From: Hyphomicrobiales bacterium
GTDB taxonomy: Bacteria; Pseudomonadota; Alphaproteobacteria; Rhizobiales; OSC116
Assembly (NCBI GenBank): GCA_016744975.1
Contig: JADGDI010000017.1
Location: 1 to 36,101 of the forward strand
Reading direction: 5' to 3'
Length of the DNA stretch: 36,101 bases
This document shows, in pieces, positions 8,994 through 35,926 of this stretch. Position 1 is the first letter of the stretch, and each line of letters opens with the position of its first letter. The translations under genes and the position numbers were made by a program. The notes beneath the pieces are model-generated. The model was not told where the DNA came from, made no database searches, and saw only the letters and a program-made list of their open reading frames with translations.

Positions 8994-10139
<1,146 letters not shown>

Positions 10140-15877: not shown

Positions 15878-15947
15878 ATTTCCCTCTATGTTTCTAAATT
15901 TGTCTCAGTTTTTGGCCGATTTATTATTTTTATCATTAGAGCCAATA

Positions 15948-15976: not shown

Positions 15977-15990
15977 CTTTATTTTGAAAT

Positions 15991-18074: not shown

Positions 18075-18096
18075 GATTAGACCCTCAGATTAGCAT

Positions 18097-18135: not shown

Positions 18136-18168
18136 ATTATGTTTAAAATACATACTTAGGGGTGGATA

Positions 18169-19482
18169 ATGACCAATAATTTAAAAAGTGAAGCTCTATT
18201 TAGTCGAGCAATTGAAGTTTTACCAGGCGGCATTAGCCGAAATGCAATATTTAGAAAACCGTATCCGTTTTACGCAGCGCATGGAAAAGGTGCTTACATT
18301 ACTGATATAGAGGGTGTTGAGCGCATTGACTTTGCCAATAATATGGCGTCGCTTATTCATGGGCATTGTAATGATGTACTTAATGATGCGATTAAAAGCC
18401 AGCTTGATAAAGGCGTGGCTTTTACTATGGGCACAGAAGTTGAGATTGAATTTGCCGAGTATATGGTTGAGCGATATGGCAGTTTTGATAAAATTCGGTT
18501 TGTTAACTCGGGCACAGAGGCGATTATGGCCGCAATCCGCGCCAGCCGAGCTTATACGGGCAAGGTAAAAATTGCCAAGGCCGAAGGGGCTTACCATGGC
18601 GCTTATGACTATGCCGAGGTTAGTGAAAATTCCAAACCTGACAATTGGGGTGACGTTGCTGCGCCTAACAACAACCCTGTTGTATTTAACACACCAAAAA
18701 GCGCGTTGGATGAAGTGGTTATCATTCCTTTTAACGATATTGAACGTGCTATTAATATACTTGATCAACATGCCAGCGAATTGGCATGTATCATTTTAGA
18801 TGCAATTCCCCACCGTATTGGGTTCATTCCGGCTCAGAAACAATATGTGGAAACTTTAGCCGCATGGGCGAAGAAAAACTCAGTTTTACTGGTGTTTGAT
18901 GAAGTGATTACCCTACGGGCTGAATTGGGCGGTGCGCAATCTTGGTTTGATGTAAAACCTGATTTAACCGCTATGGGTAAAATGATTGGCGGGGGTTTTC
19001 CTGTTGGGGCAATCGCGGGTAGTGATGAAGTGATGCAAGTTCTTAACCCGTTGGCAGATAAAGTTTTATTTCCTCATAGCGGTACATTTAGCGCCAACCC
19101 AATGACCATGATGGCTGGCCTTACAAGCATGCGATTATTTGAAGGACAAGCGATTACCAAGCTTAACCATTTGGCTGATAGAATGCGGTTGCAAATTAAA
19201 GAGGCCATAGCGGTTGCTGATGTGCCTGTTTGTGTTACTGGCGCGGCCTCGGTTTCAAAAATTCATATGTTAGGGCAGACACCGACTAGTTACCGCGACC
19301 ATTTCAAGTCTTCTAAAATGAAAAAGCTTGAGAATAGGTTGATTGAATATATGGCGGCAAATGGCGTGCTGATGGTTGGGACTTGCTCGCTCATTTTATC
19401 AACCGCGATGGAAACCAAAGAAATTGACCACTTTAGCGAAGTGTTTTTAGCCGCCATGCGCGATATGAAAAGTGAATTTTAG
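18169..19482 (+). CDS. Class III PLP-dependent aminotransferase (glutamate-1-semialdehyde aminomutase-like)
   Basis: A 437-residue fold-type I enzyme. It begins like glutamate-1-semialdehyde aminomutases (ALFSRAIEVLPGGISRNA). PLP-site features: SGTEA (114-118), FDEV with Asp244, and the Schiff-base Lys271 in DLTAMGKMIGGGFPVGAIAG; HSGTFSANPMTM follows. It is probably not the tetrapyrrole enzyme HemL: the EPVAGN-like segment before FDEV is replaced by LDAIPHRIGFIPA, and it sits under an IclR regulator. Such paralogues act on diverse amines or amino acids; substrate unknown. AGGGGTGG precedes the ATG. Its stop overlaps the stop of the convergent AGE-family gene by four bases. Confidence 0.88.
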   Translation: MTNNLKSEALFSRAIEVLPGGISRNAIFRKPYPFYAAHGKGAYITDIEGVERIDFANNMASLIHGHCNDVLNDAIKSQLDKGVAFTMGTEVEIEFAEYMVERYGSFDKIRFVNSGTEAIMAAIRASRAYTGKVKIAKAEGAYHGAYDYAEVSENSKPDNWGDVAAPNNNPVVFNTPKSALDEVVIIPFNDIERAINILDQHASELACIILDAIPHRIGFIPAQKQYVETLAAWAKKNSVLLVFDEVITLRAELGGAQSWFDVKPDLTAMGKMIGGGFPVGAIAGSDEVMQVLNPLADKVLFPHSGTFSANPMTMMAGLTSMRLFEGQAITKLNHLADRMRLQIKEAIAVADVPVCVTGAASVSKIHMLGQTPTSYRDHFKSSKMKKLENRLIEYMAANGVLMVGTCSLILSTAMETKEIDHFSEVFLAAMRDMKSEF

Positions 19483-20759
19483 CTGCCATATAGTTCAGAT
19501 TTTTTGATGCCAGCGGTGATGCTGCAATCAGAAGGCAATAACGGTATTAAGCATGCTTGCAGAGCGTGATAAATGTCGGGTTTACCCGCAAATACCTTTT
19601 CATTATTGCCTAAATCTGATTGCGCTTCTGGCCACCAGCCACCGTTTTTATGGTCGATAAACTGCTGACTTACATAGCCTAGGATACGGCGATACCAAGT
19701 TTCATAATATGGATCATTGGTTACATTTGCTAAAACCGCAGCTGCGGCGATGCCTTCGGCGCATGGCCACCAAAATTTATCGGCCTTACTGGGTTGGTCT
19801 TGCCAATTTAAAGTATAATAGAAACCGCCTAATTGTTGATCCCAACCAGATTTTATGGCATTTTTAAACAGGTTTTTTGCAGCTGGTTGCATCCAATTAT
19901 TTTTGCGGCCACCCAGCTGCCAAAGTTGGATTAACAGACGTGACCATTCTAGCGCGTGGCCGGGGGTTGTGCCACTTGGGCGAAACATCGGGTCACCTTC
20001 ATAGTTTTGATCGACTTGCCAATTTTGGTTAAAATGCTCAGGCACACGCCAGCCATTTTGCCGTGCGTGATGATTGATGATTAATTCTGAAATTTGCTCG
20101 GCCATTTGTAGGAAGTTTTTATCGCCCGTGGCTTCAAATGCGGCCATACTCGCCTCGGTTAAATGCATGTTTGAATTTTGACCACGATAATTGCTAATCT
20201 CTTGCCAATCTTCGGTAAATTCTTCGCGCGTTGCGCCAATTTTATCATCCCAAAAGCGGGTTAATATAATGTCGCTAACGTCGTTTAACAAACGATCAGC
20301 ATCGGGGTGGCCGATAATTTTTGCCGATGATGCTGCGAGCAAGACAAATGCATGACCATAGGCTAATTTACCATTATCTATTGGATGAGCATCAGCCACA
20401 GCGGAGAAATAGCCGCCATTTTTTTGATCGCGATGATGTTGCCAGATGAATTTCATTCCATGATCTACATTGCGTTCAGCTGCCGGCAAGCCCAACAAAT
20501 GGCCGATCGCAAAGCTATGCACCATACGGGTGGTATCATGCAAATGACGGGTAGTGCCCTTTTGATTTTCGGGAGATTGCAAAGGGTTGCCAAAGCCGTC
20601 CAGAGCATGAAAACCACCGCTAGAGTTAAAAGCGGAAAATTGAAAAAATGTTAGTAATGACATGGCTTGACCAAGCATCCATTGATGGTGAGCAGGCCTT
20701 GTTATAAATCTTGAACCTTCGCTGCTTGGCCAATTATTTTTGTTATTTTCATTTTCCAT
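19479..20759 (-). CDS. AGE-family sugar epimerase/isomerase
   Basis: A 426-residue (alpha/alpha)6-barrel protein of the N-acylglucosamine 2-epimerase family, which includes mannose isomerases, cellobiose epimerase and sulfoquinovose/aldose isomerases. Conserved pieces: DTTRMVHSFAIGHLLG, YGHAFVLLAASSAK, SNMHLTEASMAAFEATGD, TTPGHALEWSRLLIQLW and FWWPCAEGIAAAAVL, with the catalytic histidines near the ends of these helices. The frame is open to 20852, but an upstream start would overlap the terminator at 20827-20875; ATG 20759 (MENENNKNN) is preceded by GGAAAA and is preferred. The substrate is not readable. It lies downstream of the ABC transporter operon and overlaps the aminotransferase gene tail to tail. 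Confidence 0.88.
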   Translation of the reverse strand: MENENNKNNWPSSEGSRFITRPAHHQWMLGQAMSLLTFFQFSAFNSSGGFHALDGFGNPLQSPENQKGTTRHLHDTTRMVHSFAIGHLLGLPAAERNVDHGMKFIWQHHRDQKNGGYFSAVADAHPIDNGKLAYGHAFVLLAASSAKIIGHPDADRLLNDVSDIILTRFWDDKIGATREEFTEDWQEISNYRGQNSNMHLTEASMAAFEATGDKNFLQMAEQISELIINHHARQNGWRVPEHFNQNWQVDQNYEGDPMFRPSGTTPGHALEWSRLLIQLWQLGGRKNNWMQPAAKNLFKNAIKSGWDQQLGGFYYTLNWQDQPSKADKFWWPCAEGIAAAAVLANVTNDPYYETWYRRILGYVSQQFIDHKNGGWWPEAQSDLGNNEKVFAGKPDIYHALQACLIPLLPSDCSITAGIKKSELYGS

Positions 20760-20826
20760 AATTTTCCATAATTTGCTAAATGGTGGTTTTTTTGAATATA
20801 TCCATATCGCATGCAGCCATGCAATG

Positions 20827-20875
20827 AAAAAGCGCCCTCTCATCACAGTCACTTTGTGTTGAGGGACGCTTTTTC
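20827..20875 (-). terminator. Intrinsic terminator of the pyrimidine/ABC transporter operon
   Basis: A long hairpin: AAAAAGCG pairs with CGCTTTTT (20827-20834 and 20867-20874), then CCCTC with GAGGG and CACA with TGTG inside, with one bulged base. On the minus strand the stem ends in a run of five T. It lies 21 bases after the stop of the binding-protein gene. Confidence 0.85.
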
Positions 20876-20895: not shown

Positions 20896-21882
20896 TTACA
20901 TTTTGGCTTTGTCTGTAATCATGCTTGTCCAAGCGCCTTTTGGTGCTTTGCTGATGACACCAGCACCACCTTTTAACAATACATCAACAGTACGTTGGTA
21001 ATCCGCTTCTAGCAACGAGCCATCTGAACCTGCGGTTAGTTTTGAAATTTCGCGCATCATGCGGCGTTGATGCTCTTCAGTTTGCGCACCAGAGGCATCA
21101 TTTTCGAGGATGATGTCTGCCGCTTCATCTGGATTGGCAGATGCATATGCCCAACCTTTCATCGAAGCTTTTACAAAACGCACCATTTTATCAGCAAAGG
21201 CGGCATCTTTTAGATTATCTTCAAGCACATAAATACCATCTTCAAGCGTTGCAACGCCCTGATCTTCATATTTAAAGGTGATTAAATCTTCAGCTTTAAG
21301 GCCTGCATCAATGATTTGCCAATATTCATTATAGGTCATTGTGGAGACGCAAGCGGCTTGTTTTTGCAATATAGGATCGACATTAAAGCCTTGTTTAAGT
21401 ACGGTTACGCCATCGGCGCCGCCATCAGTCGATAGGCCTAATTTGCTCATCCAACTTAGGAATGGATATTCATTACCATAAAACCACACACCTAATGTTT
21501 TGCCTTTAAAATCTGCAGGGGTTTTAATGCCACTATCTTTACGGCAGGTTAGCATCATACCCGATGACTTAAAGGGTTGTGCGATATTGACCAATGGCAC
21601 ACCTTTTTCGCGCGTTGCAAGTGCTGAAGGCATCCAATCTAGCACCACATCGGCGCCGCCACCTGCAATGACTTGCGCAGGTGCAATGTCTGGCCCGCCT
21701 GGTTTGATTTCAACGTCGAGGTCTTCACCCTCGTAAAAGCCTTTGTCTTTTGCCACATAATAGCCAGCAAATTGAGCTTGGGTTACCCATTTTAGCTGCA
21801 ATGTAACCTTGTCTGCCGCCAAGGCGCTAAATGCCGCAACCGACATAGCACTGGCCAATAATAATGTTGTAAATTTTTTCAT
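20896..21882 (-). CDS. ABC transporter substrate-binding protein, NMT1/THI5-like
   Basis: A 328-residue periplasmic protein from ATG 21882. Signal peptide: KKFTTLLLASAMSVAAFSA, cleaved near ALA-ADKV. The mature N-terminus VTLQLKWVTQAQFAGYYVAK and DKGFYEGEDLDVEIKPGGPD are typical of NMT1/THI5-like proteins, which in studied cases bind pyrimidine precursors, riboflavin-type or sulfonate ligands. The frame opens at 21897, but that codon lies within the GGGAG ribosome-binding region of ATG 21882. Last gene of a seven-gene operon with dihydropyrimidinase; a pyrimidine or hydantoin-like ligand is the best guess from context. Confidence 0.9.
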   Translation of the reverse strand: MKKFTTLLLASAMSVAAFSALAADKVTLQLKWVTQAQFAGYYVAKDKGFYEGEDLDVEIKPGGPDIAPAQVIAGGGADVVLDWMPSALATREKGVPLVNIAQPFKSSGMMLTCRKDSGIKTPADFKGKTLGVWFYGNEYPFLSWMSKLGLSTDGGADGVTVLKQGFNVDPILQKQAACVSTMTYNEYWQIIDAGLKAEDLITFKYEDQGVATLEDGIYVLEDNLKDAAFADKMVRFVKASMKGWAYASANPDEAADIILENDASGAQTEEHQRRMMREISKLTAGSDGSLLEADYQRTVDVLLKGGAGVISKAPKGAWTSMITDKAKM

Positions 21883-22035
21883 TTTATTCTCCCTCATTCA
21901 GTTTGATTTATTTGCTTTTTTTGGTTTATTCGCTGATTTTACCAACCCTCTATTGGTATAATCTGCCAATTTCTAATTTTTGCTCCGCTACTATTTTACC
22001 CTTTATTATTTCATTTGTTGCTATTTTGCCCATTA

Positions 22036-22896
22036 CTATTTTGCTCGTTGTGATGGGTGCCAAAAAGTAATACGCCCTTCGATTAATACAATAATGCCAT
22101 AAAATATGCTGCCTGCTAATGCTGCCACTGCAATTTCTGCCCAGACCATATCAACATTCATTCGCCCGACTTCGGTCGAAATTCTAAAGCCCATACCCAC
22201 TGTTGGGGTGCCAAAAAACTCTGCAACAATGGCACCTATCATAGCCAATGTTGAGTTTATTTTAAGTGCATTAAATATAAATGGCCCTGCCGATGGCAAA
22301 CGTAAATAAACTAAAGTTTGACGCCAGCTGCTGGCATAAGTGCGCATTAGATCACGCTCCATTGAGTTGGTAGCACTAAGACCTTGCACGGTATTTACCA
22401 ACATTGGAAAGAAAGTCATGATAATAACCACTGCGGCTTTTGACTGCCAGTCAAAACCAAACCACATGACCATGATGGGCGCAACACCAATGATTGGCAA
22501 TGCAGCAACAAAATTACCCAATGGCAAAAGACCGCGTTGTAAAAACGGTGATCGGTCAATTAATATAGCAACGATAAAACCTGAACCACAGCCAACCACA
22601 TAGCCAATTAGCACGGCATGTAAGAATGTTTGTTTAAAATCTGCCCATAAAATGGGTAAGCTGTTGGTAATGCGCTCCCAAATCATTGATGGTGGGGGAA
22701 GCAAAATTGTTGGTACTTTAAAGCCGCGCGTTGCGCCCTCCCACAGAACCAACAATGTAATGCCAAATAGTAGAGGGACAAATATTGAAATGGCTCGGTT
22801 AACCATTGGGCTACAATTATTTAGGCTTACCAGCCATTGATTTAGCGCCCATGCAAGCAACCAAAAGATAATTGCGCCGATGAAAATTAAACTCAT
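22036..22896 (-). CDS. ABC transporter permease (SsuC/TauC-like)
   Basis: A 286-residue inner-membrane permease with about seven hydrophobic helices. It carries LPPPSMIWERI, VGCGSGFIVAILID, FVAALPIIGVAPIMVMWFG (the region before the EAA loop), and DLMRTYASSWRQTLVYLRLPSAGPF, the EAA-type loop that contacts the ATPase; AMIGAIVAEFFGTPTVGMGF is typical of the nitrate/sulfonate/taurine permease group. Its ATG overlaps the stop of the preceding permease gene by one base, so the two are translationally coupled. Likely forms a heterodimeric channel with that permease. Confidence 0.93.
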   Translation of the reverse strand: MSLIFIGAIIFWLLAWALNQWLVSLNNCSPMVNRAISIFVPLLFGITLLVLWEGATRGFKVPTILLPPPSMIWERITNSLPILWADFKQTFLHAVLIGYVVGCGSGFIVAILIDRSPFLQRGLLPLGNFVAALPIIGVAPIMVMWFGFDWQSKAAVVIIMTFFPMLVNTVQGLSATNSMERDLMRTYASSWRQTLVYLRLPSAGPFIFNALKINSTLAMIGAIVAEFFGTPTVGMGFRISTEVGRMNVDMVWAEIAVAALAGSIFYGIIVLIEGRITFWHPSQRAK

Positions 22897-23789
22897 TAGC
22901 TTACCCCCCCAGCTTGGCTATCTAACTGACCCATGCGTTTAAGCACCATATTATGGGCTATGCCGACAATAATCACCAAGCCTGCTGCAACAATGGCTGC
23001 AACAAAAAGAGCTGACCAAATTTGCACCGTTTGCCCATAATATGAACCTGCTAACATACGCGCCCCAAGGCCTGCTACCGCGCCTGTTGGCAATTCGGCG
23101 ACAATCGCGCCAACCAATGAGGCTGCGACTGCAACTTTTAGCGAGGTGAATAAATAAGGCATTGAAGATGGCCATCTAAGCTTCCATAATATTTGTGATT
23201 TGCTACTGTTATAGGTGTGCATCAAATCCAACTGGGCTTGATCTGGACTGCGCAGGCCTTTAACCATGCCGACCACAATAGGGAAAAATGACAGATAAGT
23301 TGAGATAAAGGCTTTGGGTATTAGGCCTTGAAAGCCAATAGCATTCAGCACCACGATAATCATCGGCGCGATGGCCAATATGGGTATGGTTTGGCTGGTG
23401 ATCACCCACGGCATGACCGATTTATCCATGGCTTTATTATGCACGATGCTGATCGACAATATAATGCCGAATATGCTGCCCATTAAAAAGCCAAGTAAGG
23501 TTACCGATAAGGTCACCCATGCGTGATATACTAGCGAGCGTTTTGAGGTTATTTTTTTGAGGATTGTGGTGTTCCAAATCTCGCTAAAAACTTGGTGTGC
23601 TGACGGCAAAACAGGGCGTTTTTGTGACATGGTGTTTTTAACCATTTGGTTGAATTCTATCTTACTGCCTGCCCGCTCTGCTTGGTCATATTCAAAAGGT
23701 GCATTTAGCCACACCACAGCGACATACCATATCGCAACAATGACGATCAAAATGGTTAAAACCGGTATGAGTTTACCGTCTCTAGTCAT
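22896..23789 (-). CDS. ABC transporter permease (SsuC/TauC-like), second subunit
   Basis: A 297-residue permease with one N-terminal helix, a periplasmic stretch of some 60 residues, then six membrane helices. Characteristic pieces are HAWVTLSVTLLGFLMGSIFG, ITSQTIPILAIAPMIIVVL, the ATPase-contact loop DLMHTYNSSKSQILWKLRWPSSM and LVGAIVAELPTGAVAGLG. Its start overlaps the end of the ATPase gene by eight bases and its end overlaps the next permease gene. Pairing of two different permeases is less usual for this group, where one permease commonly dimerises. Confidence 0.93.
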   Translation of the reverse strand: MTRDGKLIPVLTILIVIVAIWYVAVVWLNAPFEYDQAERAGSKIEFNQMVKNTMSQKRPVLPSAHQVFSEIWNTTILKKITSKRSLVYHAWVTLSVTLLGFLMGSIFGIILSISIVHNKAMDKSVMPWVITSQTIPILAIAPMIIVVLNAIGFQGLIPKAFISTYLSFFPIVVGMVKGLRSPDQAQLDLMHTYNSSKSQILWKLRWPSSMPYLFTSLKVAVAASLVGAIVAELPTGAVAGLGARMLAGSYYGQTVQIWSALFVAAIVAAGLVIIVGIAHNMVLKRMGQLDSQAGGVS

Positions 23790-24564
23790 CGTAACTTTGC
23801 CCCGCTCTTAAGCCCTCACGCACACGATGTGCTATGTCTCTAAATTCGTCACTCTCGCGGATGTCTAATGGGCGTTCTTTGGGTAGTGGGCTTTCAATCA
23901 CATCTATCACCCGCCCAGGCCTTGGGCTCATAACCACAATTTTGGTCGACAAATATACCGCTTCGGATATTGAATGGGTGACAAAACAAATGGTTTTATG
24001 AGTGCGCTCCCATAACTGCAATAATTGTTGGTTTAAATGATCGCGGACAATTTCATCCAACGCGCCAAACGGCTCATCCATTAACAATAAATCGGCATCA
24101 AATGCCAAAGAGCGGGCGATGGATGCCCGTTGTTGCATACCGCCTGATAGTTGCCACGGGTATTTTTTCTCAAAACCTGCAAGATTGACCAAATTTAACG
24201 AATCTTGTGTGCGTTTTAAGATTTCATCTCGGCTATAACCCATAATCTCAAGCGGTAAGGCGACATTTTTCTCGATTGTGCGCCACGGGTAGAGTGATGC
24301 ATGTTGGAATACATAGCCATATGCGCGGGCTTTACGGGCTTGCTCGGGAGTAACACCATTGACCAAAATTTCACCGCTGGTTGGTTTTTCAAGATCGGCG
24401 ATCACTCTTAGGAAGGTGGTTTTGCCGCAACCGGAAGGGCCAATGAAGGATACAAAATCGCCTTTTTTTACCTCAAGGTCAACCTCTGACAAGGCGTGTA
24501 CTGGCGCATCACTGGTTTCAAAAACTAGTGATAATTTTTTTGCTGATATAACTATTTCTGACAC
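23782..24564 (-). CDS. ABC transporter ATPase (SsuB/TauB-like)
   Basis: A 260-residue nucleotide-binding subunit: Walker A GPSGCGKTT (42-50), Q-loop in FQHASLYPW (near 87), signature LSGGMQQR (139-146), Walker B LLLMDE (159-164) and switch His197 in FVTHSISEA. It resembles the nitrate/sulfonate/taurine importers. The start is GTG at 24564 with AAAGGGA upstream; the ATG two bases before it is in another frame. It lies 11 bases after the dihydropyrimidinase gene and overlaps the following permease gene. Confidence 0.93.
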   Translation of the reverse strand: MSEIVISAKKLSLVFETSDAPVHALSEVDLEVKKGDFVSFIGPSGCGKTTFLRVIADLEKPTSGEILVNGVTPEQARKARAYGYVFQHASLYPWRTIEKNVALPLEIMGYSRDEILKRTQDSLNLVNLAGFEKKYPWQLSGGMQQRASIARSLAFDADLLLMDEPFGALDEIVRDHLNQQLLQLWERTHKTICFVTHSISEAVYLSTKIVVMSPRPGRVIDVIESPLPKERPLDIRESDEFRDIAHRVREGLRAGQSYDD

Positions 24565-26067: not shown

Positions 26068-27318
26068 TTATTTTATAATTTGTGCAGTTTCAACCACTGC
26101 ATGGAATAATACATCCGCCCCTGCAGTTGACCATTGTTTGCTAATATCTTCAGCTTCATTATGCGAAAGGCCATCTACACATGGGCACATAATCATCGCT
26201 GTTGGTGCAAGGCGGTTGATCCAACAGGCATCATGGCCTGCGCCTGAAATGATATTCATGTGTGAATAACCTAAATTTTCAGCTGCCTTTCGTACTGCAG
26301 TGACGCAATTTTCATCGAACGTTACGGGGTCGAAACCACCGACTTTTTCGATCTCTATTTCTAGCCCCATCATGTCGCAAATTTTCTTTGCACCTTTTGC
26401 TAGTGCTTGCTCCATTGCTTCAATAGTCGCCAGATCTGGTGATCTTAGGTCAACTGTGAATACGACTTTACCTGGGATGACATTGCGGCTATTGGGGTAT
26501 ACATCAATATGCCCTGCAGCGCCTACGGCGTTGGGTTTGTGTGACCATGCAATTTCATCAACCAGCTCTAAAATTCTTGCCATGCCAAGGCCTGCATTTT
26601 TGCGCATTGGCATGGGGGTTGAGCCTGTATGGCTGTCCTTGCCTGTGACGGTGATTTGCGTCCATGACAGGCCTTGACCGTGGGTTACCACGCCAATGTC
26701 TTTATTTTCGGCTTCTAAAATTGGCCCTTGTTCAATATGCAGCTCAAACATGGCGTGCATTTTACGTGCGCCGACCTGTTCATCGCCTAGCCAGCCAATG
26801 CGTTTTAGCTCATCGCCAAATTTTTTACCTGCTGCATCCTCAATCTCATATGCCCATTCTTGGGTGTGCATTTCTGCAAATACGCCAGATGCTAACATGG
26901 CAGGTGCATAGCGGGTGCCTTCTTCATTTGTCCAATTGGTGACGACGATGGGATGTTTGGTTTTAATGTCCAAATCATTAAGGCTGCGTACCACTTCAAG
27001 GCCTGCTAAAACGCCTAATATGCCATCGTAACGCCCGCCTGTTGGTTGGGTATCTAAATGGCTGCCTATATAAACAGGTAATAAATTGGGGTCGCTGCCT
27101 TCTCTAGTCATAAACATGTTGCCCATGGTATCGACACCCATTGTCATACCTGCATCGAGGCACCATTTTTTAAAAAGATGACGGCCTTCACTGTCTTCAT
27201 CGGTTAGGGTTTGGCGGTTATTACCACCTGCAACACCTGGGCCAATTTTTGCCATTTCATGAATGCTATCCCACAAACGATCGCCATTAATGCGTAAATT
27301 CTCACCCGCTGCGCTCAT
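26068..27318 (-). CDS. Zn-dependent N-carbamoyl-amino-acid hydrolase (beta-ureidopropionase type)
   Basis: A 416-residue M20-family amidohydrolase. The zinc site is visible as GSHLDTQPTGGRYDG (His87, Asp98) and TNEEGTRYAP (Glu132/Glu133), with ELHIEQGPILE and HTGSTPMPMRKNAG in the lid/dimerisation domain and SGAGHDACW near the end. Members hydrolyse N-carbamoyl-beta-alanine, N-carbamoyl-L-amino acids or allantoate. With dihydropyrimidinase 37 bases downstream, the beta-ureidopropionase role (releasing beta-alanine or 2-methyl-beta-alanine, ammonia and carbon dioxide) is the most likely. GGGAG precedes the ATG. A decayed cupin reading frame lies just upstream. Confidence 0.88.
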   Translation of the reverse strand: MSAAGENLRINGDRLWDSIHEMAKIGPGVAGGNNRQTLTDEDSEGRHLFKKWCLDAGMTMGVDTMGNMFMTREGSDPNLLPVYIGSHLDTQPTGGRYDGILGVLAGLEVVRSLNDLDIKTKHPIVVTNWTNEEGTRYAPAMLASGVFAEMHTQEWAYEIEDAAGKKFGDELKRIGWLGDEQVGARKMHAMFELHIEQGPILEAENKDIGVVTHGQGLSWTQITVTGKDSHTGSTPMPMRKNAGLGMARILELVDEIAWSHKPNAVGAAGHIDVYPNSRNVIPGKVVFTVDLRSPDLATIEAMEQALAKGAKKICDMMGLEIEIEKVGGFDPVTFDENCVTAVRKAAENLGYSHMNIISGAGHDACWINRLAPTAMIMCPCVDGLSHNEAEDISKQWSTAGADVLFHAVVETAQIIK

Positions 27319-27483: not shown

Positions 27484-28974
27484 TTAGGTTGGGAAAGTAA
27501 ATACAGCACCTTGTTTTATACCTGTTGGCCATCTGGTTGTGATGGTTTTAAGGCGCGTGTAAAAATGTATGCCTTCGGGGCCGTAGATTGAATGATCGCC
27601 AAATAATGAGCGTTTCCACCCGCCAAAACTATGATAAGCAACAGGTACAGGAATTGGTACATTCACACCTACCATACCCACTTCAATGCGGTTGGCAAAA
27701 TCGCGCGCGGCATCGCCATCGCGGGTAAAGATTGCCGTGCCATTGCCATATTCATGGTCATTTATCATATCCACCGCAGTTTCATAATCTGCAACCCGAG
27801 CGACTTGCAATACGGGGCCAAAAATCTCTTCTTTATAGATGGTCATGTCGGTTGTGATGCCGTCAAATAATGTGCCGCCTACAAAATAGCCGTTTTCATA
27901 ACCTTGTAGTTTGAAACCGCGCCCATCTACAAGCAGTTCTGCGCCTTCTTCAACACCTTTATCGATATAAGAAAACACTTTTTCTTGATGCATTTTGGTA
28001 ATCACGGGGCCCATTTCAGCATCGGAATCAGTCGATGGGCCAATTTTCAAGGATTCAACCCTTGGCTTTAACTTTTCGATCAATTTATCAGCTGTTTGAT
28101 CGCCAATTGCGACGGCAACTGAAATTGCCATACAACGTTCACCCGCACTGCCATATCCTGCACCCATTAAGGCATCTGCTACTTGATCCATATCGGCATC
28201 GGGCATGATGATCATATGGTTTTTTGCGCCGCCTAAAGCTTGTACACGTTTGCCAGCTGCGGTGCCGCGCGTATAAATATACTCGGCAATAGGCGTTGAG
28301 CCGACAAAGCTGACGGCTTTAACATCGTCATGATCTAAGATTGCATCAACCGCACCCTTATCACCATGAACAATGTTAAATACGCCAGGAGGGAAGCCTG
28401 CCTCATGAAACAATTCCCACACCAACATTGGTGCTGCGGGGTCTCGCTCTGAGGGCTTTAAAACAAAAGTGTTACCACAGGCAATGGCGATTGGAAACAT
28501 CCACATCGGCACCATTGCTGGGAAATTAAATGGGGTAATGCCCGCCACAACACCAAGCGGTTGGCGGTCAGAAAAGCTGTCTATCGCAGGGCCAACATTG
28601 CGGCTAAACTCGCCCTTTAACAGGCCAGGAATGCCACAGGCATATTCTACAATTTCGATACCGCGCTGTAATTCGCCCAAGGCATCATCATGGGTTTTGC
28701 CTTGTTCTTTTGAGATAGCGCGGGCTAAATCATCCGCCCTGTCATCTAGCAACTGTTTGAATTTAAACATGAATTTTGAGCGTTTAAGTGCTGGCATATC
28801 TAGCCATGCAGGCAATGCGGCTTTGGCAGCAGCAACCGCCTCGCTAACTTCGGTATTTGTTGAAAGTGGCAAGCTAGAGGATTGCTCACCTGTTGCTGGA
28901 TTATATACAGCAACATGCTTGTCCGTATTTGAAGTGACCAATTTACCATTTATGCCATTTTGATAGATATGCAT
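27484..28974 (-). CDS. mmsA: CoA-acylating methylmalonate/malonate-semialdehyde dehydrogenase
   Basis: A 496-residue aldehyde dehydrogenase of the MmsA/IolA type, which converts malonate semialdehyde to acetyl-CoA, or methylmalonate semialdehyde to propionyl-CoA, with NAD and CoA. Seen: TPFNFPAMVP (147-156), VLKPSERDP, FVGSTPIAEYIY, nucleophile Cys281 in GSAGERCMA. The usual general-base Glu of ELGGK is replaced (QALGGAKNH, Ala246), a hallmark of the CoA-dependent group. These aldehydes are end products of uracil and thymine breakdown after transamination of beta-alanine or its methyl form. First gene of the operon, with a RutR-type operator in its promoter. The matching beta-alanine transaminase is not obvious in the window. 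Confidence 0.94.
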   Translation of the reverse strand: MHIYQNGINGKLVTSNTDKHVAVYNPATGEQSSSLPLSTNTEVSEAVAAAKAALPAWLDMPALKRSKFMFKFKQLLDDRADDLARAISKEQGKTHDDALGELQRGIEIVEYACGIPGLLKGEFSRNVGPAIDSFSDRQPLGVVAGITPFNFPAMVPMWMFPIAIACGNTFVLKPSERDPAAPMLVWELFHEAGFPPGVFNIVHGDKGAVDAILDHDDVKAVSFVGSTPIAEYIYTRGTAAGKRVQALGGAKNHMIIMPDADMDQVADALMGAGYGSAGERCMAISVAVAIGDQTADKLIEKLKPRVESLKIGPSTDSDAEMGPVITKMHQEKVFSYIDKGVEEGAELLVDGRGFKLQGYENGYFVGGTLFDGITTDMTIYKEEIFGPVLQVARVADYETAVDMINDHEYGNGTAIFTRDGDAARDFANRIEVGMVGVNVPIPVPVAYHSFGGWKRSLFGDHSIYGPEGIHFYTRLKTITTRWPTGIKQGAVFTFPT

Positions 28975-29478
28975 TGGACTGCTCTTTAGCTGTTAATATT
29001 ATTTCACTATAGCCGCCTTGACCAACTGGTCAAGATTAAATTTAAAACCAGGCCATTAAACCTAAGATTCAGGTCGCATTTTTAAGCTTGCTGAAATGAG
29101 GTTGAGTTTGCTAGCATAATGAAAAATATGGGCTTATTTAATTTTTATTGCAAAATTAGATAGGCCTTCGAAATGTGAATAACTAGATTTTAAATTTAGC
29201 AAAAGGCGGTAAAAAATTGCAAATGACGCTCATTTTATGCTGTTATGACGCATAAATGGGGATGTTAGCATTGGTTTTTTAAAATTTATATCGGGTAAAG
29301 CCATTCTATAATGATAGATTACTATGTGATAATGCACTATATTCCTGACTAAAATTCAATAGCCAATGTTTTTGTTTATTTTTTGAAGTTAGTTATTTTC
29401 TACTATCTAGTTTATTTATATGAAAAATTTTAGCTTTTATAAATCAATTTATAAATTTCTTGACCTATTTTTTATCAA
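28975..29478. other. Divergent promoter region between mmsA and cofG
   Basis: A 504-base AT-rich spacer between the two main operons. It holds the mmsA promoter and RutR-type operator at its left end and a candidate cofG promoter at its right end. Between 29040 and 29455 I see no open frame of note, RNA gene or second copy of the operator. Confidence 0.7.
29006..29033 (-). promoter_or_regulatory. mmsA promoter overlapped by a RutR operator
   Basis: The 16 bases 29018-29033 read TTGACCAACTGGTCAA, an exact match to TTGACCAnnTGGTCAA, the palindrome known for RutR, the pyrimidine-sensing TetR-family repressor of E. coli. On the minus strand its first half is also the -35 hexamer TTGACC (29028-29033); after a 16-base spacer comes -10 TATAGT (29006-29011), with the mmsA ATG 32 bases further on. 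Binding would block RNA polymerase, and uracil or thymine would relieve it. No rutR gene is in the window. Confidence 0.8.
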
Positions 29479-29488
29479 ATGGTAAAAA
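29460..29488 (+). promoter_or_regulatory. Candidate cofG promoter
   Basis: -35 TTGACC (29460-29465), 17-base spacer, -10-like TAAAAA (29483-29488). The expected transcription start falls on or next to the ATG at 29494, which would make a leaderless message and would explain why no ribosome-binding site is seen. Weak -10; tentative. Confidence 0.35.
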
Positions 29489-29493
29489 ATATT

Positions 29494-30630
29494 ATGGAAG
29501 AAAAATACAAAGCCCCAACCGCTGAACTTTTAGCGTCTTTACCGTTAGAAATTTTAAAGCAGCAGGCACAAAAAATAAAATTGGAGCAATGGGGAGATGT
29601 GATCACATATTCTCGCAAGGTTTTTGTTCCTTTGACCAATATGTGCCGCGATACCTGTGGTTATTGCACATTTGTTAAACACCCTGACGACCCTGCCGCT
29701 GAAATTATCACCAAAGACCAAGTTTTAGCCATTGCCAAAGAAGGGCAAAAAAAAGGCTGCAAAGAATTGTTGTTCAGTTTGGGCGAAAAGCCTGAATTGC
29801 GTTACCAAAAAGCTAAAGCAGCGCTTGCTAAACTTGGCTACTCATCAATTATTGATTATTTAGCTGATATGTGCCAACTGGTGCTTGATGAAACCAGCTT
29901 ATTGCCCCATGTGAACGCTGGCACATTAACCCCTGATGAAATTGTTAAGCTTAAGCCTGTTGCCGCATCAATGGGCATGATGCTTGAGACAGTGAGCAAG
30001 CGGTTGACCAAAATTGGCATGGCGCATTATGCTTGCCCCGACAAAATGCCCGTCCAGCGATTGCGTACTTTAGAACGCACTGGTGCGCTTAACGTGCCTT
30101 TTACAACCGGCTTGTTAATTGGTATTGGTGAGACATGGCAAGAGCGAATTGACAGCTTATATGCAATCGCCAAAATGCATAAAAAATATGGGCATATCCA
30201 AGAAGTGATTGTGCAAAATTTTATGTCAAAACCTGGAATAGAAATGCAAAATCACCCTGAACCTAGCTTGGATGACATGCTGCGAACATTATGTGCTGCG
30301 CGGCTTATATTACCGCCTGATATCAGCTTGCAAGCGCCACCAAATTTAAGCAATCGCCATGTTGAATATTTATCAGCGGGGATTAATGACTGGGGCGGCA
30401 TATCCCCCATTACCATTGATTTTATCAACCCACAAAATGAATGGCCTGAAATTAGAGAACTTGCAAAAAGCACTGAAAGATTTGGTGGTAAATTGCAAGA
30501 AAGACTAACCGTTTACCCCAAATATATCCAAGCTGAAACACGATTTATTGACAAAAGTATTTTACCACGCATTTTTGTACAAGCACGAAGCGATGGGCTA
30601 GCCCAAAACCAAGAGGTAACGACATCATGA
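29494..30630 (+). CDS. cofG: FO synthase subunit 1 (7,8-didemethyl-8-hydroxy-5-deazariboflavin synthase CofG)
   Basis: A radical-SAM enzyme that with CofH builds the deazaflavin chromophore FO of coenzyme F420 from tyrosine and the flavin precursor 5-amino-6-ribitylaminouracil. The iron-sulfur cluster motif CRDTCGYC follows VFVPLTNM, in the C-x3-C-x2-C spacing; KELLFSLGEKPE and HVNAGTLTPDE are typical of CofG, as is VQNFMSKPG. From ATG 29494 it has 378 residues; an in-frame ATG at 29479 would add five. Neither has a good ribosome-binding site. The stop overlaps the cofH start by four bases. Separate CofG and CofH, not the fused FbiC of actinobacteria. Confidence 0.95.
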   Translation: MEEKYKAPTAELLASLPLEILKQQAQKIKLEQWGDVITYSRKVFVPLTNMCRDTCGYCTFVKHPDDPAAEIITKDQVLAIAKEGQKKGCKELLFSLGEKPELRYQKAKAALAKLGYSSIIDYLADMCQLVLDETSLLPHVNAGTLTPDEIVKLKPVAASMGMMLETVSKRLTKIGMAHYACPDKMPVQRLRTLERTGALNVPFTTGLLIGIGETWQERIDSLYAIAKMHKKYGHIQEVIVQNFMSKPGIEMQNHPEPSLDDMLRTLCAARLILPPDISLQAPPNLSNRHVEYLSAGINDWGGISPITIDFINPQNEWPEIRELAKSTERFGGKLQERLTVYPKYIQAETRFIDKSILPRIFVQARSDGLAQNQEVTTS

Positions 30631-31871
30631 CCCACCGCGCCATGAGGACATTATTAACCGCAAGCACTGCCACTCAAGATATTTTAAACCGCTGCTTGGC
30701 TGGCAATGAGGTTAGTGAAAAAGACGGCATTATATTATTTTCGGCGCCTGAAAGTGACATGCCTGCTATTGCTAGTGTGGCTGATTATTTGCGCTCTAAA
30801 ACCAATGGAGATGCGGTTTCATTTGTAGTCACACGCAACATTAACTTTACTAACATTTGCTATATGGGCTGTAAATTTTGCAATTTTGCCAAACGAATTG
30901 AAGATGTTGGCGCACAATGGCTCGACATTGATAAACTGGTTGAAAGGGCCGTTGAAGCTTGGGATAGAGGCGCAACGGAAGTTTGCATTCAAGGTGGTTT
31001 GCACCCCAAAATGAAAGGCACTGAGTATCGAAATATTTTACTGGCATTAAAAGCCCGATTGCCCGATTTGCACATCCATGCATTCTCACCCTTTGAGATT
31101 TGGTATGGCGCTAAAAAGTCCAAACTTTCTTATGAAGCATTTTTGAGCGATTTGAAGAACTGTGGTTTAGACTCAATGCCTGGCACTGCAGCGGAAATTC
31201 TTGATACGGAAATTCGCAAACAGCTTACTAAAAACAAATTAAGCACCGAGCAATGGGTCGAGATTATTACCACCGCACATAAGGTTGGCATCCCGACCAC
31301 TTGCACCATTATGTATGGCCATATTGACGGGCCAAAAGACTGGGCTGGGCATATTTGTAAATTACGCGACATTCAGAAACAAACAGGGGGGTTTACTGAG
31401 TTTGTACCGCTAAGCTTTGTGCATACAGACTCGCCATTATATACTGAAAACCCCGAAACTGTTCGCCCTGGCCCAACGGCACTTGAGGTTGAAAAAATGC
31501 ATGCAATATCCCGTATTTTATTACATAGGTGGATTGATAATATTCAGGTATCTTGGACCAAGCTTGGTGCTGAATTTGCAACCGAAATGCTACAATCTGG
31601 GGTGAATGACCTTGGTGGTACTTTAATGAATGAGAGCATTTCCAGAGCTTCTGGTGCTTTAAATGGGCAAGAAATTACCGCAACTGAAATGGTTGAGATG
31701 ATCCGCACAGTTGGCCGCACACCTGTTCAGCGCAATACACTATATCAGGTTTTGGAGACATATTTGCATAAAGAACCAACGGACTATGCACCTTTGGTTG
31801 ACCGCAAAGGGCAGAATCCGCTTGATTATTTAGCTCAAGAACCAATGGCAATAGAACAGGCTGGTGCATAA
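30627..31871 (+). CDS. cofH: FO synthase subunit 2 (CofH)
   Basis: A 414-residue radical-SAM protein, partner of CofG in FO synthesis. The cluster motif CYMGCKFC has Cys78, Cys82 and Cys85, after VTRNINFTNI. Downstream are EVCIQGGLHPKM, IHAFSPFEIWYGAKK, LDSMPGTAAEIL, TTCTIMYGHIDGP and the late GGTLMNESISRASGA, all as in CofH and related menaquinone (MqnC/MqnE) enzymes; operon position settles it as CofH. The C-terminal 40 residues extend past the family core. Its start overlaps the cofG stop (ATGA) and its end overlaps cofD by one base. Confidence 0.95.
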   Translation: MTHRAMRTLLTASTATQDILNRCLAGNEVSEKDGIILFSAPESDMPAIASVADYLRSKTNGDAVSFVVTRNINFTNICYMGCKFCNFAKRIEDVGAQWLDIDKLVERAVEAWDRGATEVCIQGGLHPKMKGTEYRNILLALKARLPDLHIHAFSPFEIWYGAKKSKLSYEAFLSDLKNCGLDSMPGTAAEILDTEIRKQLTKNKLSTEQWVEIITTAHKVGIPTTCTIMYGHIDGPKDWAGHICKLRDIQKQTGGFTEFVPLSFVHTDSPLYTENPETVRPGPTALEVEKMHAISRILLHRWIDNIQVSWTKLGAEFATEMLQSGVNDLGGTLMNESISRASGALNGQEITATEMVEMIRTVGRTPVQRNTLYQVLETYLHKEPTDYAPLVDRKGQNPLDYLAQEPMAIEQAGA

Positions 31872-32836
31872 TGGCTGATATTCAAAAAACCTCGGTTGTT
31901 TTACTATCTGGTGGGGTTGGCGGGGCTAAGATAGCCGAAGGCTTGGCGCATATTGACCATGTAGATTTGACCATTATTGGCAATGTTGCTGATGATGATG
32001 AGTTTCATGGTTTGTGGGTATCGCCTGACATTGACACGCTGGTTTACACGCTTTCAGGGCGCATTGACACAAAGCAGGGTTGGGGTGTTGCTGATGAAAG
32101 TTTGCGCGCCTTATCGGTTTTAACTGAACTTGGGCAAGACACCTGGATGACCTTGGGTGACCGAGATTTTGGTTTGCATATTTACCGAACAAATCGCCTT
32201 AAGCAAGGCCATAGCCGCAATGAGATTTTGAGCGATATTTGCGCGGCATTTAAACTACCCTGTTCAATTATTTTACCAACTGAAGATGTGATTCAGACTA
32301 GGGTTCGGATTTCTAGTGGGTGGGTTAGTTTTCAAGAATATTTTGTCAAAGAGCAATGTTTGCCAGAAGTCCTAGAATTAAAGGTTCAAAATATCGAGAA
32401 GGCCAAGCCTAGTCAGATGGCTTTAGATGCCATAAAAAATGCTGACATTATTGTTATTGCACCAAGCAATCCACTGGTTTCCATTTTGCCGATCATTAAT
32501 ATTCCTGATATTGGCGAGGCAATAAAATCGGCAACTGCGCCGAAAGTTGGCATGTCACCATTGATTGGTGGTAAAACCGTTAAAGGCCCTGCTGATAAAA
32601 TGATGCAATCTTTAGGTATCGGTGCAAAATCCTCGCAAATTGCGGCATTATATCGTGATTATTTGGATGTGTTTTTTATTGATCGTTGCGATGTTCTTGA
32701 AAAGACAGACATAACAAAAGGTGGCATGGCAGTTGTAACCGACAATATTTTTATGCGCAATAAGGTCGATAAAATTGCTTTGGCAAAAAAAATGTTACAA
32801 AGTGTGAATTTGCTTGGGAGCGTTGAAAATGGCTAA
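31871..32836 (+). CDS. cofD: 2-phospho-L-lactate transferase (CofD)
   Basis: A 321-residue enzyme that joins FO to the phospho-lactyl (or phosphoenolpyruvyl or related) group of the activated guanylyl precursor, giving F420-0 or its dehydro form. Clear signatures: VVLLSGGVGGAKIAEGL at the N-terminus, NVADDDEFHGLWVSPDIDTLVYTLSG, TWMTLGDRDFGLHIYRT, and IVIAPSNPLVSILPIINIP with VGMSPLIGGKTVKGPADKMM. Full length. It overlaps cofH by one base and cofC by eight, so translation is coupled along the operon. Confidence 0.96.
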   Translation: MADIQKTSVVLLSGGVGGAKIAEGLAHIDHVDLTIIGNVADDDEFHGLWVSPDIDTLVYTLSGRIDTKQGWGVADESLRALSVLTELGQDTWMTLGDRDFGLHIYRTNRLKQGHSRNEILSDICAAFKLPCSIILPTEDVIQTRVRISSGWVSFQEYFVKEQCLPEVLELKVQNIEKAKPSQMALDAIKNADIIVIAPSNPLVSILPIINIPDIGEAIKSATAPKVGMSPLIGGKTVKGPADKMMQSLGIGAKSSQIAALYRDYLDVFFIDRCDVLEKTDITKGGMAVVTDNIFMRNKVDKIALAKKMLQSVNLLGSVENG

Positions 32837-33470
32837 TATGGTAGATACCGATTGCTTGATTATCATCCCGATGAAAGACCCGAAGCTTGCCAAAACTCGA
32901 CTGGGCAAAGTAGTTGATGATGAAACCCGCGCGGCATTGGCACTTGGTTTATTTAAAAACACATTGCGGATTTTGGCAGATTTAAGCCCACGAGCTTCCG
33001 TCTTGGTGGTAACTGAGGCGCAAGCAATTGCGGATATTGCTGTTAAGCAAAAATTTGCTGCTTTGGTTCGAACGCTTAAAGATGGACTCAATGGCGCTGT
33101 GACTGACGGGGCTAATTGGGCTGTTGAGCAAGGGTATAAAACCATCGTGATTATCCCTGCTGACCTTGCGCTATTGGAGGTTGAAGACTTAGCCGATGCG
33201 TTACAATATGCAGATATTGCCGAGCAATTAACGCTTTGCAAATCTGCTGATGGCGGCACAAATTGTTTGATGGTTTCGCCGCCTAATGCCATTAAATTTT
33301 GTTATGGAATAAACTCGTTTAATTTGCATAAGATGCAGGGGCGCTCTGCGGATTTGACTGTACAGATACTGGCTGAAACCAGTATGAAATTTGACTTGGA
33401 TAGTGCGGATGATTTGGATGGCCTCGCGCGTAGCAGCTATTTGTCTTTAGTCAGCGGAGGCCTTGCATGA
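32829..33470 (+). CDS. cofC: Phospholactate/phosphoenolpyruvate-type guanylyltransferase (CofC/FbiD)
   Basis: A nucleotidyltransferase that activates 2-phospholactate, phosphoenolpyruvate or 3-phosphoglycerate with GTP for CofD. From ATG 32829 it has 213 residues: CLIIIPMKDPKLAKTRLGKV (nucleotide loop), VLVVTEAQAIADIA, LKDGLNGAVTDGANWAVEQG, IVIIPADLALLEVEDL and CKSADGGTNCLMVSPP. The frame opens at a TTG (32814) but ATG 32829 has GGGAG eight bases upstream. Which three-carbon acid is used cannot be told by eye and matters, because it sets the chemical form of the cofactor. Overlaps cofE by four bases. Confidence 0.93.
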   Translation: MANMVDTDCLIIIPMKDPKLAKTRLGKVVDDETRAALALGLFKNTLRILADLSPRASVLVVTEAQAIADIAVKQKFAALVRTLKDGLNGAVTDGANWAVEQGYKTIVIIPADLALLEVEDLADALQYADIAEQLTLCKSADGGTNCLMVSPPNAIKFCYGINSFNLHKMQGRSADLTVQILAETSMKFDLDSADDLDGLARSSYLSLVSGGLA

Positions 33471-34234
33471 GTTTGTTTATTTCGGTCATTCCTGAAATTC
33501 CTGAAATTCAGCCCAATGACGATTTGGCTGCAATATTGGCTGAAAAGATTTTGGCAAATATTGGTCAGTTGCAAGATTATGACATATTGGTCATTGCTCA
33601 AAAAGTTATCTCAAAAGCTGAGGGCCGTATTGTTAACCTATCGGATATCACACCATCTACCGAAGCATTGGACTATGCTAAAAAACTTGCAAAAGACCCC
33701 CGTAAAGTGGAGGTAGTATTGCGCGAGAGCAGCAAAGTGGTAAAGAGTTTTAAACACCCAAATAATGATGAAGGCACGATGATTTGCCAGCATAATACAG
33801 GGCATATTAGCGCCAATGCGGGGGTAGACCAGTCTAATTGCACAGGCGATGATGAGGTGATTTTATTGCCTATTTCAGCTGATAAAAGCGCTGAGAAAAT
33901 TCGTAAAATATTGGTTGAGAAATTCAACGTTAAGCTTGGCATTATTATTTCCGACACATTTGGACGGCCTTGGCGCTTAGGCCAAATGAATGTTGCCATT
34001 GGGGTTGCTGGCATGCCAGCTAAAAAAAGTGAGGTTGGTAATTTGGATGCAAATGGCCGACCATTATCCGTAACCGAACCTGCCTTTGCCGATGAAATTG
34101 CCGCCGCTTCTGGCCTAGTTATTGGCAAGGCATCTAACACACCGCTGGTTTTAGTGCGTGGTTTAACATGGCATGAAGCAGCAGGTACAGCACAAGATTT
34201 AATTAGAAACCAAAAAGAGGATGCATTTAGATGA
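33467..34234 (+). CDS. cofE: Coenzyme F420:L-glutamate ligase (CofE)
   Basis: A 255-residue GTP-dependent ligase that adds glutamate residues to F420-0. It shows [48 protein letters not shown] (substrate-binding), [16 protein letters not shown] and [20 protein letters not shown] with AIGVAGM, all characteristic. It is the stand-alone archaeal-type form, lacking the flavin-binding C-terminal domain of mycobacterial FbiB. If cofactor synthesis passes through dehydro-F420-0, the reductase for that step would have to be another protein. Overlaps both neighbours by four bases. Confidence 0.95.
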
Positions 34235-34899
34235 CCATAGCAATTATTGGCGGGACAGGCCCTCAGGGCCAAGGGTTGGCATTGCGATTTGCGAAAGCTG
34301 GCGTGGCTGTGGCACTGGGTTCGCGCGATGGGGGGCGCGCCAAACAAATAGCCGAAACATTAAATGAAAAGCTGCCTGAAGGTTCGGCTGAAATTTTAGG
34401 GCTTGAGAATAATTTAGCAACGCAAGCCGCAGATGAATTGGTCATTTTGGCGGTACCATTCTCAGCCCATAACGTGACTTTAGAAGGTATTAAGCCTGAC
34501 CTTGTTGGAAAAGTTTTAGTTGATATTGTTGTTCCACTTTCGGCCACCGACCCAAAACTGGTTGATATGCCACCAGAAGGTTCGGCTACCGAAGCAGCCC
34601 AAGCACTTTTAGGCAAGGAAATACCTGTAATTGGTGCATTGCATAATGTTTCGGCAACTACTTTAAATAATTTAGAATGGGATATAAATTGTGACATTTT
34701 AGTTTGTGGCAATAGTTTAGATGCACGCAAAAAAGTTATGGCATTATGCAATAGGCTTGGTGTGCAATCTTATAATGCAGGCCCCGCGCAGAGCGCCCGT
34801 TGCATTGAGGCCATGACGCCTATTCTGATACGGATTAACATATCAAAAGCCGTGCCATTTTCTCATGCTGGCATGAAAATTTGGGCACCAGAACACTAG
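34231..34899 (+). CDS. npdG: NADPH-dependent F420 reductase
   Basis: A 222-residue Rossmann-fold enzyme that moves hydride between NADP(H) and F420. The N-terminus [20 protein letters not shown] binds NADP, with [13 protein letters not shown] providing the 2'-phosphate contact. [45 protein letters not shown] and [16 protein letters not shown] complete the family pattern. It would keep F420 reduced for the oxidoreductase encoded next. Overlaps cofE by four bases. Confidence 0.94.
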
Positions 34900-34921: not shown

Positions 34922-35926
34922 ATGGATTTTGGAATTTGTTTTAAAGGCTTTGTTGAGCCGGAACGCGCAAAAGCATTGGTTCGACAAGCGGAAAATGCAG
35001 GCTTTAAATATTGCTGGTTTTACGACAGCCATATTTTATGGCGTGAATGTTACCCAGCCATTGCAATGTGCATGGAGCATACTACAAAAATGCGGTTTGG
35101 CCCTTGTGTGACCAACCCTAATACACGAGATTGGTCTGCAGCGGCAAGCTTGTTTGGCTCACTCGCGCACCAATCTGGCGGGCGATTTGACATTGGGCTT
35201 GGCCGCGGTGACAGCGCAGTACGGGTTATGGGTAAAAAGCCTGCTAAACTTGCAAAGCTTGAAGAATTTACTCATAAAGTTAAAGCGCTTATTCGTGGTG
35301 AAGAAGTTGAATATGGTGATTGCCCTGCGCCGATTAAATTTCCATGGGCAAATGGCTATGAACTGCCTGTTTGGGTTGCAGCTTATGGCCCTAAAGCGCT
35401 TGCATCTGCCGGTAAAGTTGGTGACGGGCTGATATTACAAATTGCAGAACCTGCTATTTGTAAATGGCTCGGCGACCAAGCTGTTAAGGCGGGTGTTGAG
35501 GCTGGTCGTGACATGTCAAATTATGGCATAATGGCTGCAGCGCCTGCATTTACGGGTGATCGGAAAGTTGGCCGTGAGGCAACGCGTTGGTTCCCTGCTA
35601 TGGTTGGCAACCATGTTGCTGATATTGTCGAAAAATACGGCACTGAGAATAGTGATATTCCATCGAGCTTAACATCATATATCGAGAATAGACGCGGTTA
35701 TGATTATTCCAAACATGGCCAAAGTGATAACCCATTTTTGGACTTTATTACCGATGATATTATCGATGCTTTTTGCGTCTTGGGCGAAACAGATGAACAT
35801 ATTAGCAAGATTCGTGAACTTGAAAAGGTTGGTGTAACGCAGTTTAATATTTATCTCGATAGTGGTGATGAAGAGCGCATTATTGCAGATTATGGCACCG
35901 ATATTATTCCAGAATTTGAGAAATGA
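34922..35926 (+). CDS. Luciferase-like (LLM class) F420-dependent oxidoreductase
   Basis: A 334-residue TIM-barrel protein of the bacterial luciferase-like family, close in style to methylenetetrahydromethanopterin reductase (Mer) and to the group I remember as TIGR03842 (CPS_4043 family). Seen: MDFGICFKGFVEPERAKAL, WFYDSHILWRECYPAIAMC, FGPCVTNPNTRDWSAAAS, RFDIGLGRGDSAVRVMGKKP, LPVWVAAYGPKALASAGKVGDGLIL and the late GVTQFNIYL. A GGGAGAATATT ribosome-binding region precedes the ATG. As last gene of the F420 operon it is the obvious user of the cofactor. Substrate unknown; linkage to the divergent pyrimidine operon suggests a cyclic-amide or pyrimidine reductase, which is inference. Confidence 0.9.
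   Translation: MDFGICFKGFVEPERAKALVRQAENAGFKYCWFYDSHILWRECYPAIAMCMEHTTKMRFGPCVTNPNTRDWSAAASLFGSLAHQSGGRFDIGLGRGDSAVRVMGKKPAKLAKLEEFTHKVKALIRGEEVEYGDCPAPIKFPWANGYELPVWVAAYGPKALASAGKVGDGLILQIAEPAICKWLGDQAVKAGVEAGRDMSNYGIMAAAPAFTGDRKVGREATRWFPAMVGNHVADIVEKYGTENSDIPSSLTSYIENRRGYDYSKHGQSDNPFLDFITDDIIDAFCVLGETDEHISKIRELEKVGVTQFNIYLDSGDEERIIADYGTDIIPEFEK

Follow-up and report, generated by a model that had tools for sequence, protein, structure and literature searches.

The window, by which we mean the whole stretch of 36,101 nucleotides analyzed here, carries two operons that lie head-to-head across one 500-bp interval. The minus-strand operon starts with mmsA and includes an ABC transporter, and the plus-strand operon is a cof operon for the biosynthesis of coenzyme F420. 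The features on the mmsA side are the following.

29018 to 29033, no strand: RutR operator (almost certain), a perfect TTGACCANNTGGTCAA palindrome; consensus match, genome uniqueness, PWM
29006 to 29033, minus strand: predicted mmsA promoter, with the -35 hexamer TTGACC (29033-29028) within the operator, a 16-base spacer, and the -10 hexamer TATAGT (29011-29006); consensus match
27484 to 28974, minus strand: mmsA, CoA-acylating methylmalonate/malonate-semialdehyde dehydrogenase; TIGR01722, 724 bits, cut-off 448
26068 to 27318, minus strand: hyuC-type Zn amidohydrolase, putative beta-ureidopropionase; NF006769, 693 bits; TIGR01879, 395 bits
24576 to 26030, minus strand: hyuA/hydA, dihydropyrimidinase; TIGR02033 equivalog, 623 bits, cut-off 393
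23782 to 24564, minus strand: ABC transporter ATPase; PF00005, syntenic in RutR-linked clusters
22896 to 23789, minus strand: ABC transporter permease 1; weak NCBIfam permease matches, synteny
22036 to 22896, minus strand: ABC transporter permease 2; PF00528, synteny
20896 to 21897, minus strand: ABC substrate-binding protein, NMT1/THI5-like, putatively for pyrimidine uptake; PF09084, 139 bits

The sequence TTGACCAACTGGTCAA at 29018-29033 is an inverted repeat that is exact save for its two central bases, and it agrees with the RutR consensus TTGACCANNTGGTCAA at 14 of 14 defined positions, as the initial annotation had read it, letter for letter. A pattern scan of the whole 2.77-Mb genome, which that annotation had proposed, found the exact box in a single copy, located in the mmsA promoter, where base composition predicts 0.012 copies per genome and 0.00015 per window; the reversed control pattern gave 0 exact matches, and boxes with one mismatch numbered three (0.5 expected). 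The palindrome reaches a PWM score of 26, compared with a maximum of 14 over 1000 shuffles of the region, and ends 43 bases ahead of the mmsA ATG at 28974. The proposed overlap with a good promoter is borne out as well: on the minus strand, the outer six bases of the palindrome are the -35 hexamer of a TTGACC-16-TATAGT promoter that scores 10/12 and whose -10 hexamer ends 31 bases ahead of the ATG. Promoter-like matches in the region number 8, against 3.9 in shuffles, and the mmsA promoter alone is therefore not significant; the palindrome is. A terminator scan reports a hit with a plus-strand, T-rich tail at 29017-29034, which could make the inverted repeat an intrinsic terminator; this reading was rejected, because no plus-strand gene ends at 29017-29034. 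A palindrome arising by chance is at odds with its full match to a known operator, its uniqueness in the genome, and its conservation beside rutR in relatives, and the probability of a terminator or a chance repeat taken together is negligible. The segment is thus almost certainly a RutR operator. We infer from its position that RutR bound at 29018-29033 would cover the -35 hexamer and block RNA polymerase, which would repress mmsA-hyuC-hyuA-ABC, and that binding of uracil in RutR would release it from the operator.

The RutR homologue that the operator calls for is present. A PF08362 search of the genome found one gene (G000:C35:99-1376, or L018:99-1376), whose single open frame gives two matches. 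In place of the single-unit RutR of approximately 210 residues that acts as a homodimer, the product is a tandem of 425 residues in which TetR_N and TetR_C_3 each occur twice (PF08362, 336 bits, cut-off 25). Against the NCBI RutR equivalog (TIGR03613, cut-off 368 bits), the whole tandem scores 402.9 bits and its halves 190.7 and 217.0 bits; since each half falls below the cut-off, the protein was filed as a PydR-like member of the RutR family and not as the E. coli equivalog. Both halves retain K52, K62, W77, Y97, W167, Q171, and Q179 (E. coli RutR numbering), among which W77, Y97, W167, Q171, and Q179 contact uracil in RutR, and K52 and K62 contact DNA (PMC10891134); in the tandem, K52 corresponds to K53 and K267. 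The same fused gene occurs in three genomes of the same genus (G001, G002, and G005), and the fusion is confined to this genus among the loci examined. In other Alphaproteobacteria, two paralogues are often separate neighboring genes, with the order A-B in all 24 adjacent-pair loci (a few of them from the same genome) and with reading frames that overlap by four bases in three of the four pairs examined. In the tree, the A sequences cluster weakly (63/55 support), and the B sequences join E. coli RutR with moderate support (92/92). Same-frame A-B pairs with a single stop codon between them, i.e., near-fusions, were seen in Sinirhodobacter ferrireducens and an alphaproteobacterial MAG (L089, ~9001-10365; L090, ~8407-9726).

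Because two paralogous RutR domains (A and then B) are fused, one chain can put two HTH heads on two half-sites, and the tandem would occupy both half-sites as two chains do elsewhere. On sequence grounds, we consider the chances of such intramolecular binding of the palindrome by a single chain to be even; the AlphaFold model of the tandem, built from four sequences, is poor (pLDDT 49, pTM 0.29). The TetR-family regulator Mce3R of Mycobacterium tuberculosis likewise carries two TetR units in one chain, along with two HTH motifs, but its site is asymmetric, nonpalindromic, and 25 bp long, and it has one ligand domain (PMC11667970), whereas the tandem RutR keeps the ligand residues in both halves and faces a perfect palindrome. 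The tandem offers a natural test of how a TetR-family dimer can become one chain, and its direct precursor is seen in the A-B gene pairs that are unfused in related genera.

The initial annotation had held that the site should be conserved near the mmsA orthologues of close relatives, where we found it with zero or one mismatch in four same-genus genomes. In G002, an exact box separates the tandem rutR from the divergently oriented aptA-mmsA-hyuC-hyuA-ABC; the box of G001 and that of G005 each carry one mismatch, and a box with a single mismatch separates PreT from aptA in G004, which is fragmented. The mmsA product is 83-84% identical to that of the RutR-linked operon in same-genus genomes, and the conserved operon includes the same transporter, the substrate-binding protein of which has an 86% identical counterpart in the G002 cluster. 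In families with A-B rutR pairs, the interval between rutR and the operon holds one or two boxes, which differ from the consensus at zero to two positions. Of 80 named alphaproteobacterial rutR loci, 69 carry a box with two mismatches or fewer within 450 bases upstream of rutR, compared with 10 of 1223 random windows drawn from the same rutR loci. In the window genome, the operon is now apart from rutR, yet the box is kept; in the assembly, no box was found in the 98 bases upstream of the tandem rutR on contig C35. Among the boxes with one mismatch, that on C191 (L021:4827-4842, G000:C191:10826) stops 23 bases short of the gene for a class-III aminotransferase that is only 31% identical to the AptA of RutR clusters; this gene, which lies beside alanine dehydrogenase and arginine-succinyltransferase-type genes, is a possible second member of the RutR regulon. 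The other two, on C180 (within a gene) and C154 (within a minus-strand open frame), were taken as background. In G075 and G003 (L217 and L220), a divergent PF08362 regulator is encoded in the neighborhood of an ABC transporter and a GMC-type oxidoreductase, among other genes; that of G003 has Q171 replaced by E and Q179 by I, and the ligand of this regulator is probably different.

The minus-strand operon was originally proposed to serve pyrimidines as a whole, transporter included, and this reading gains support from the profiles, the synteny, the presence of RutR, and the conservation of the box; the ABC transporter is grouped with pyrimidine genes in several families. The operon would import pyrimidines or their breakdown products through the NMT1-type ABC transporter, and dihydrouracil would then be converted via N-carbamoyl-beta-alanine, beta-alanine, and malonate semialdehyde to acetyl-CoA. 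The AptA step would be encoded elsewhere: the AptA-type beta-alanine aminotransferase of the window genome lies on contig C175, away from the operon, where no RutR box was found at the gene. Hydantoins, allantoate, or valine could instead be the substrates of the operon, with RutR answering another ligand. MmsA can also act in valine catabolism, and the hyuC product belongs to a Zn amidase subfamily (NF006769) that is named allantoate amidohydrolase. Nevertheless, the hyuA product exceeds the cut-off of the dihydropyrimidinase equivalog, the syntenic same-genus cluster includes PreT and PreA, and all the uracil-contact residues are kept in both RutR halves, which leaves a non-pyrimidine operon with only a slight probability. 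Directly downstream of the substrate-binding protein gene, an N-acylglucosamine 2-epimerase/mannose isomerase-like gene (19479-20852) perhaps forms the end of the same transcript. A TAXI-type TRAP transporter, an IclR-type regulator (PcaR/PobR-like), and a GSAM-like aminotransferase at 13268-19482 form a separate uptake/catabolic cluster.

Control of the reductive pathway by RutR, as advanced in the initial annotation, is supported but is not new. The precedents are PydR of Pseudomonas putida, a case of RutR-like control of this pathway (Hidese 2012, cited in PMC7332683), and the RutR regulons of RegPrecise, which cover 68 genomes (PMC5343134). Since this type of control is already known from PydR, the regulatory site itself is an ordinary further case of a known kind, firmly supported, and it provides a firm regulatory label for the mmsA operon and its transporter. 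E. coli RutR shares with the present system the 16-bp palindrome (at rutA and carA), membership of the PF08362 TetR family, and the uracil-contact and HTH lysine residues; in contrast, reductive-pathway genes are controlled here rather than the rut operon, and the protein is a single chain of two domains. As cited in PMC7332683, PydR represses the dihydropyrimidine dehydrogenase gene, whereas no such gene was found in the genome studied here, and the targets would be the lower-pathway and transporter genes and, probably, the F420 branch. The surroundings of the site are unusual, in that a fused RutR is combined with a probable F420-dependent first step.

This first step concerns what the initial annotation overlooked, i.e., the absence of PreA and an F420-dependent candidate across the same intergenic region. 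The features on that side are the following.

29471 to 29486, no strand: weak RutR-like degenerate palindrome TTTATCAAATGGTAAA, with 3 mismatches, which ends 7 bases before the likely cofG ATG; a suggestive site only
29494 to 30630, plus strand: cofG, FO synthase subunit; TIGR03550, 470 bits; 29494 is the likely ATG
30627 to 31871, plus strand: cofH; ORF, 57-70% identical to CofH orthologues, one of which is annotated CofH
31871 to 32836, plus strand: cofD; ORF, orthologue annotated 2-phospho-L-lactate transferase
32814 to 33470, plus strand: cofC; ORF, orthologue annotated CofC
33467 to 34234, plus strand: cofE; TIGR01916, 244 bits, cut-off 181
34231 to 34899, plus strand: npdG/FNO, NADPH:F420 reductase; TIGR01915, 185 bits, cut-off 150
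34922 to 35926, plus strand: TIGR03842 F420-dependent luciferase-like reductase; 496 bits, cut-off 295; Mer-like model, co-occurrence, synteny

The F420 biosynthesis set (cofG, H, D, C, E, and npdG) is directly upstream of the TIGR03842 gene on the same strand. The dihydropyrimidine dehydrogenase PreA/PydA is absent from this assembly, which is ~95% complete, so that PreA could fall in a gap; in same-genus genomes, PreT and PreA are located on the other side of rutR. Among 121 genomes of the order, 7 score above the cut-off for TIGR03842 and 44 for PreA, and no genome belongs to both sets. When the comparison is restricted to the 55 RutR-positive genomes of the order, PreA occurs in 42, TIGR03842 in 7, both in none, and neither in 6 (Fisher p=8.5e-6; the 7 TIGR03842 genomes come from 5 genera, and congeneric genomes are not independent). 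A class panel of 387 genomes has TIGR03842 in 8, PreA in 73, and both in none, a result that is not significant alone (p=0.18). PreA is lacking in 14 of 14 TIGR03842 genomes, and a dihydropyrimidinase is present in 13 of them; the remaining genome, G333, has TIGR03842 and no dihydropyrimidinase over the cut-off.

The protein of the window shares 68-82% identity with its closer orthologues in the alignment and 52-57% with the paralogues of family f117. Among solved structures, F420-dependent methylene-tetrahydromethanopterin reductases come closest to it (E ~1e-27), and the best match of its model (pLDDT 85) is F420-bound Mer (TM 0.82). These matches would also suit a Mer-like methylene-tetrahydrofolate reductase or another housekeeping reductase that lies near pyrimidine genes for other reasons. 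However, Mer is only 24-28% identical to TIGR03842 and has a different gene context, and what the two have in common is the F420-binding fold; moreover, TIGR03842 is exclusive with PreA, operonic with dihydropyrimidinase, and linked to RutR, which makes a housekeeping role very unlikely.

The gene neighborhoods of TIGR03842 point in the same direction as its distribution. In G360 and G426, its gene (LLM) is the first of the run LLM-hyuC-hyuA-ABC, the arrangement also given for family f116. G088 has a contiguous series of RutR, aptA, mmsA, hyuC, hyuA, ABC, cofG-H-D-C-E, npdG, and LLM. On Leisingera plasmids, NCS1 symporter-hydA-Zn hydrolase-aminotransferase-PntB-PntA faces cofG-H-D-C-E-npdG-LLM-RutR, a cluster that reads as a complete putative chain from NADPH via F420H2 to uracil. 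RutR boxes stand upstream of cofG in G026 and G071 and upstream of TIGR03842 in G010 (regional p=0.001 each; two genera). The window's own site before cofG, TTTATCAAATGGTAAA, has a regional p of 0.058, and no clear RutR box was found before cofG or TIGR03842 in G088, G333, G075, G360, G426, G486, and Leisingera. In the Leisingera RutR (L222:16228-16860), the DNA contact K52 is replaced by threonine, a change that is consistent with the absence of a canonical box from its cluster and that suggests a changed operator for this RutR.

The weakness of the window's cofG site and the incompleteness of the assembly leave room for a simpler account, in which an ordinary RutR operator happens to have the F420 operon as an unrelated neighbor, and PreTA was lost in assembly gaps or no such enzyme exists because dihydropyrimidines are taken up. 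We consider this account unlikely: TIGR03842 and PreA never occur together among the RutR genomes, the TIGR03842 gene shares an operon with hyuC-hyuA-ABC in f116 and lies in a cluster of pathway genes in G088 and Leisingera, and RutR boxes stand before cofG or TIGR03842 in two other genera. The reading that we prefer is that the conversion of uracil to dihydrouracil, carried out by PreT-PreA in relatives, would be performed here by the F420H2-dependent TIGR03842 enzyme encoded at the end of the cof operon. TIGR03842 is accordingly a good candidate for an F420H2-dependent uracil reductase that replaces PreTA, and we regard this assignment as probable. The explanation as a whole, i.e., a RutR-repressed operon, a tandem RutR, and TIGR03842 for the first step, has a probability of about 0.8 in our estimation. 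A broader reading is somewhat favored: in some Alphaproteobacteria, TIGR03842 would reduce uracil and thymine with F420H2 in place of the NAD(P)H-dependent PreTA, RutR control would reach F420 biosynthesis in some of them, and a single-chain double RutR with two non-identical heads would act on a perfect palindrome.

The proposed reaction, uracil to dihydrouracil, is that of PydA/PreTA, which are NAD(P)H- or ferredoxin-dependent (PMC7332683), and it would feed the same dihydropyrimidinase; unlike these enzymes, TIGR03842 is an F420 enzyme of luciferase fold that lacks Fe-S domains, and it is unrelated to them in sequence. A similar exchange was proposed in Chloroflexota for the degradation of urate, with a putative yanthine reductase of the F420 luciferase family in place of a PydA-like dearomatizing reductase (PMC12507026). 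That case differs in belonging to a purine pathway; it was proposed from the gene neighborhood, and a link to RutR is not described (PMC12507026). No F420-dependent uracil reductase was found in the literature on F420 with uracil, dihydrouracil, or pyrimidine degradation, with partial coverage of subscription papers, so that its absence is unproven; likewise, no mention of TIGR03842 was found in the literature searched. If TIGR03842 has the proposed role, F420H2 would be the third electron donor for the reductive pyrimidine pathway, after NAD(P)H and ferredoxin, and a family named by number alone at NCBI would have a testable function. To our knowledge, F420 use in marine and soil Alphaproteobacteria is largely unexplained. 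Uracil reduction would give it a physiological reason, and under the broader reading, a deazaflavin cofactor would be made for pyrimidine degradation.

Two further observations concern the distribution of the F420 genes. Genomes of family f117 (G487, G361, and G282; L241, L243, L244, L245, and L246) each encode two to four paralogues of TIGR03842, several of which lie beside npdG and cof genes, with hyu genes not close by and dihydropyrimidinases elsewhere in the genome. Plasmid-borne F420 biosynthesis genes together with TIGR03842 were observed in Leisingera (L222 and L269) and Paracoccus alcaliphilus (L221), with a DUF1330 gene close to the L222 and L221 clusters.
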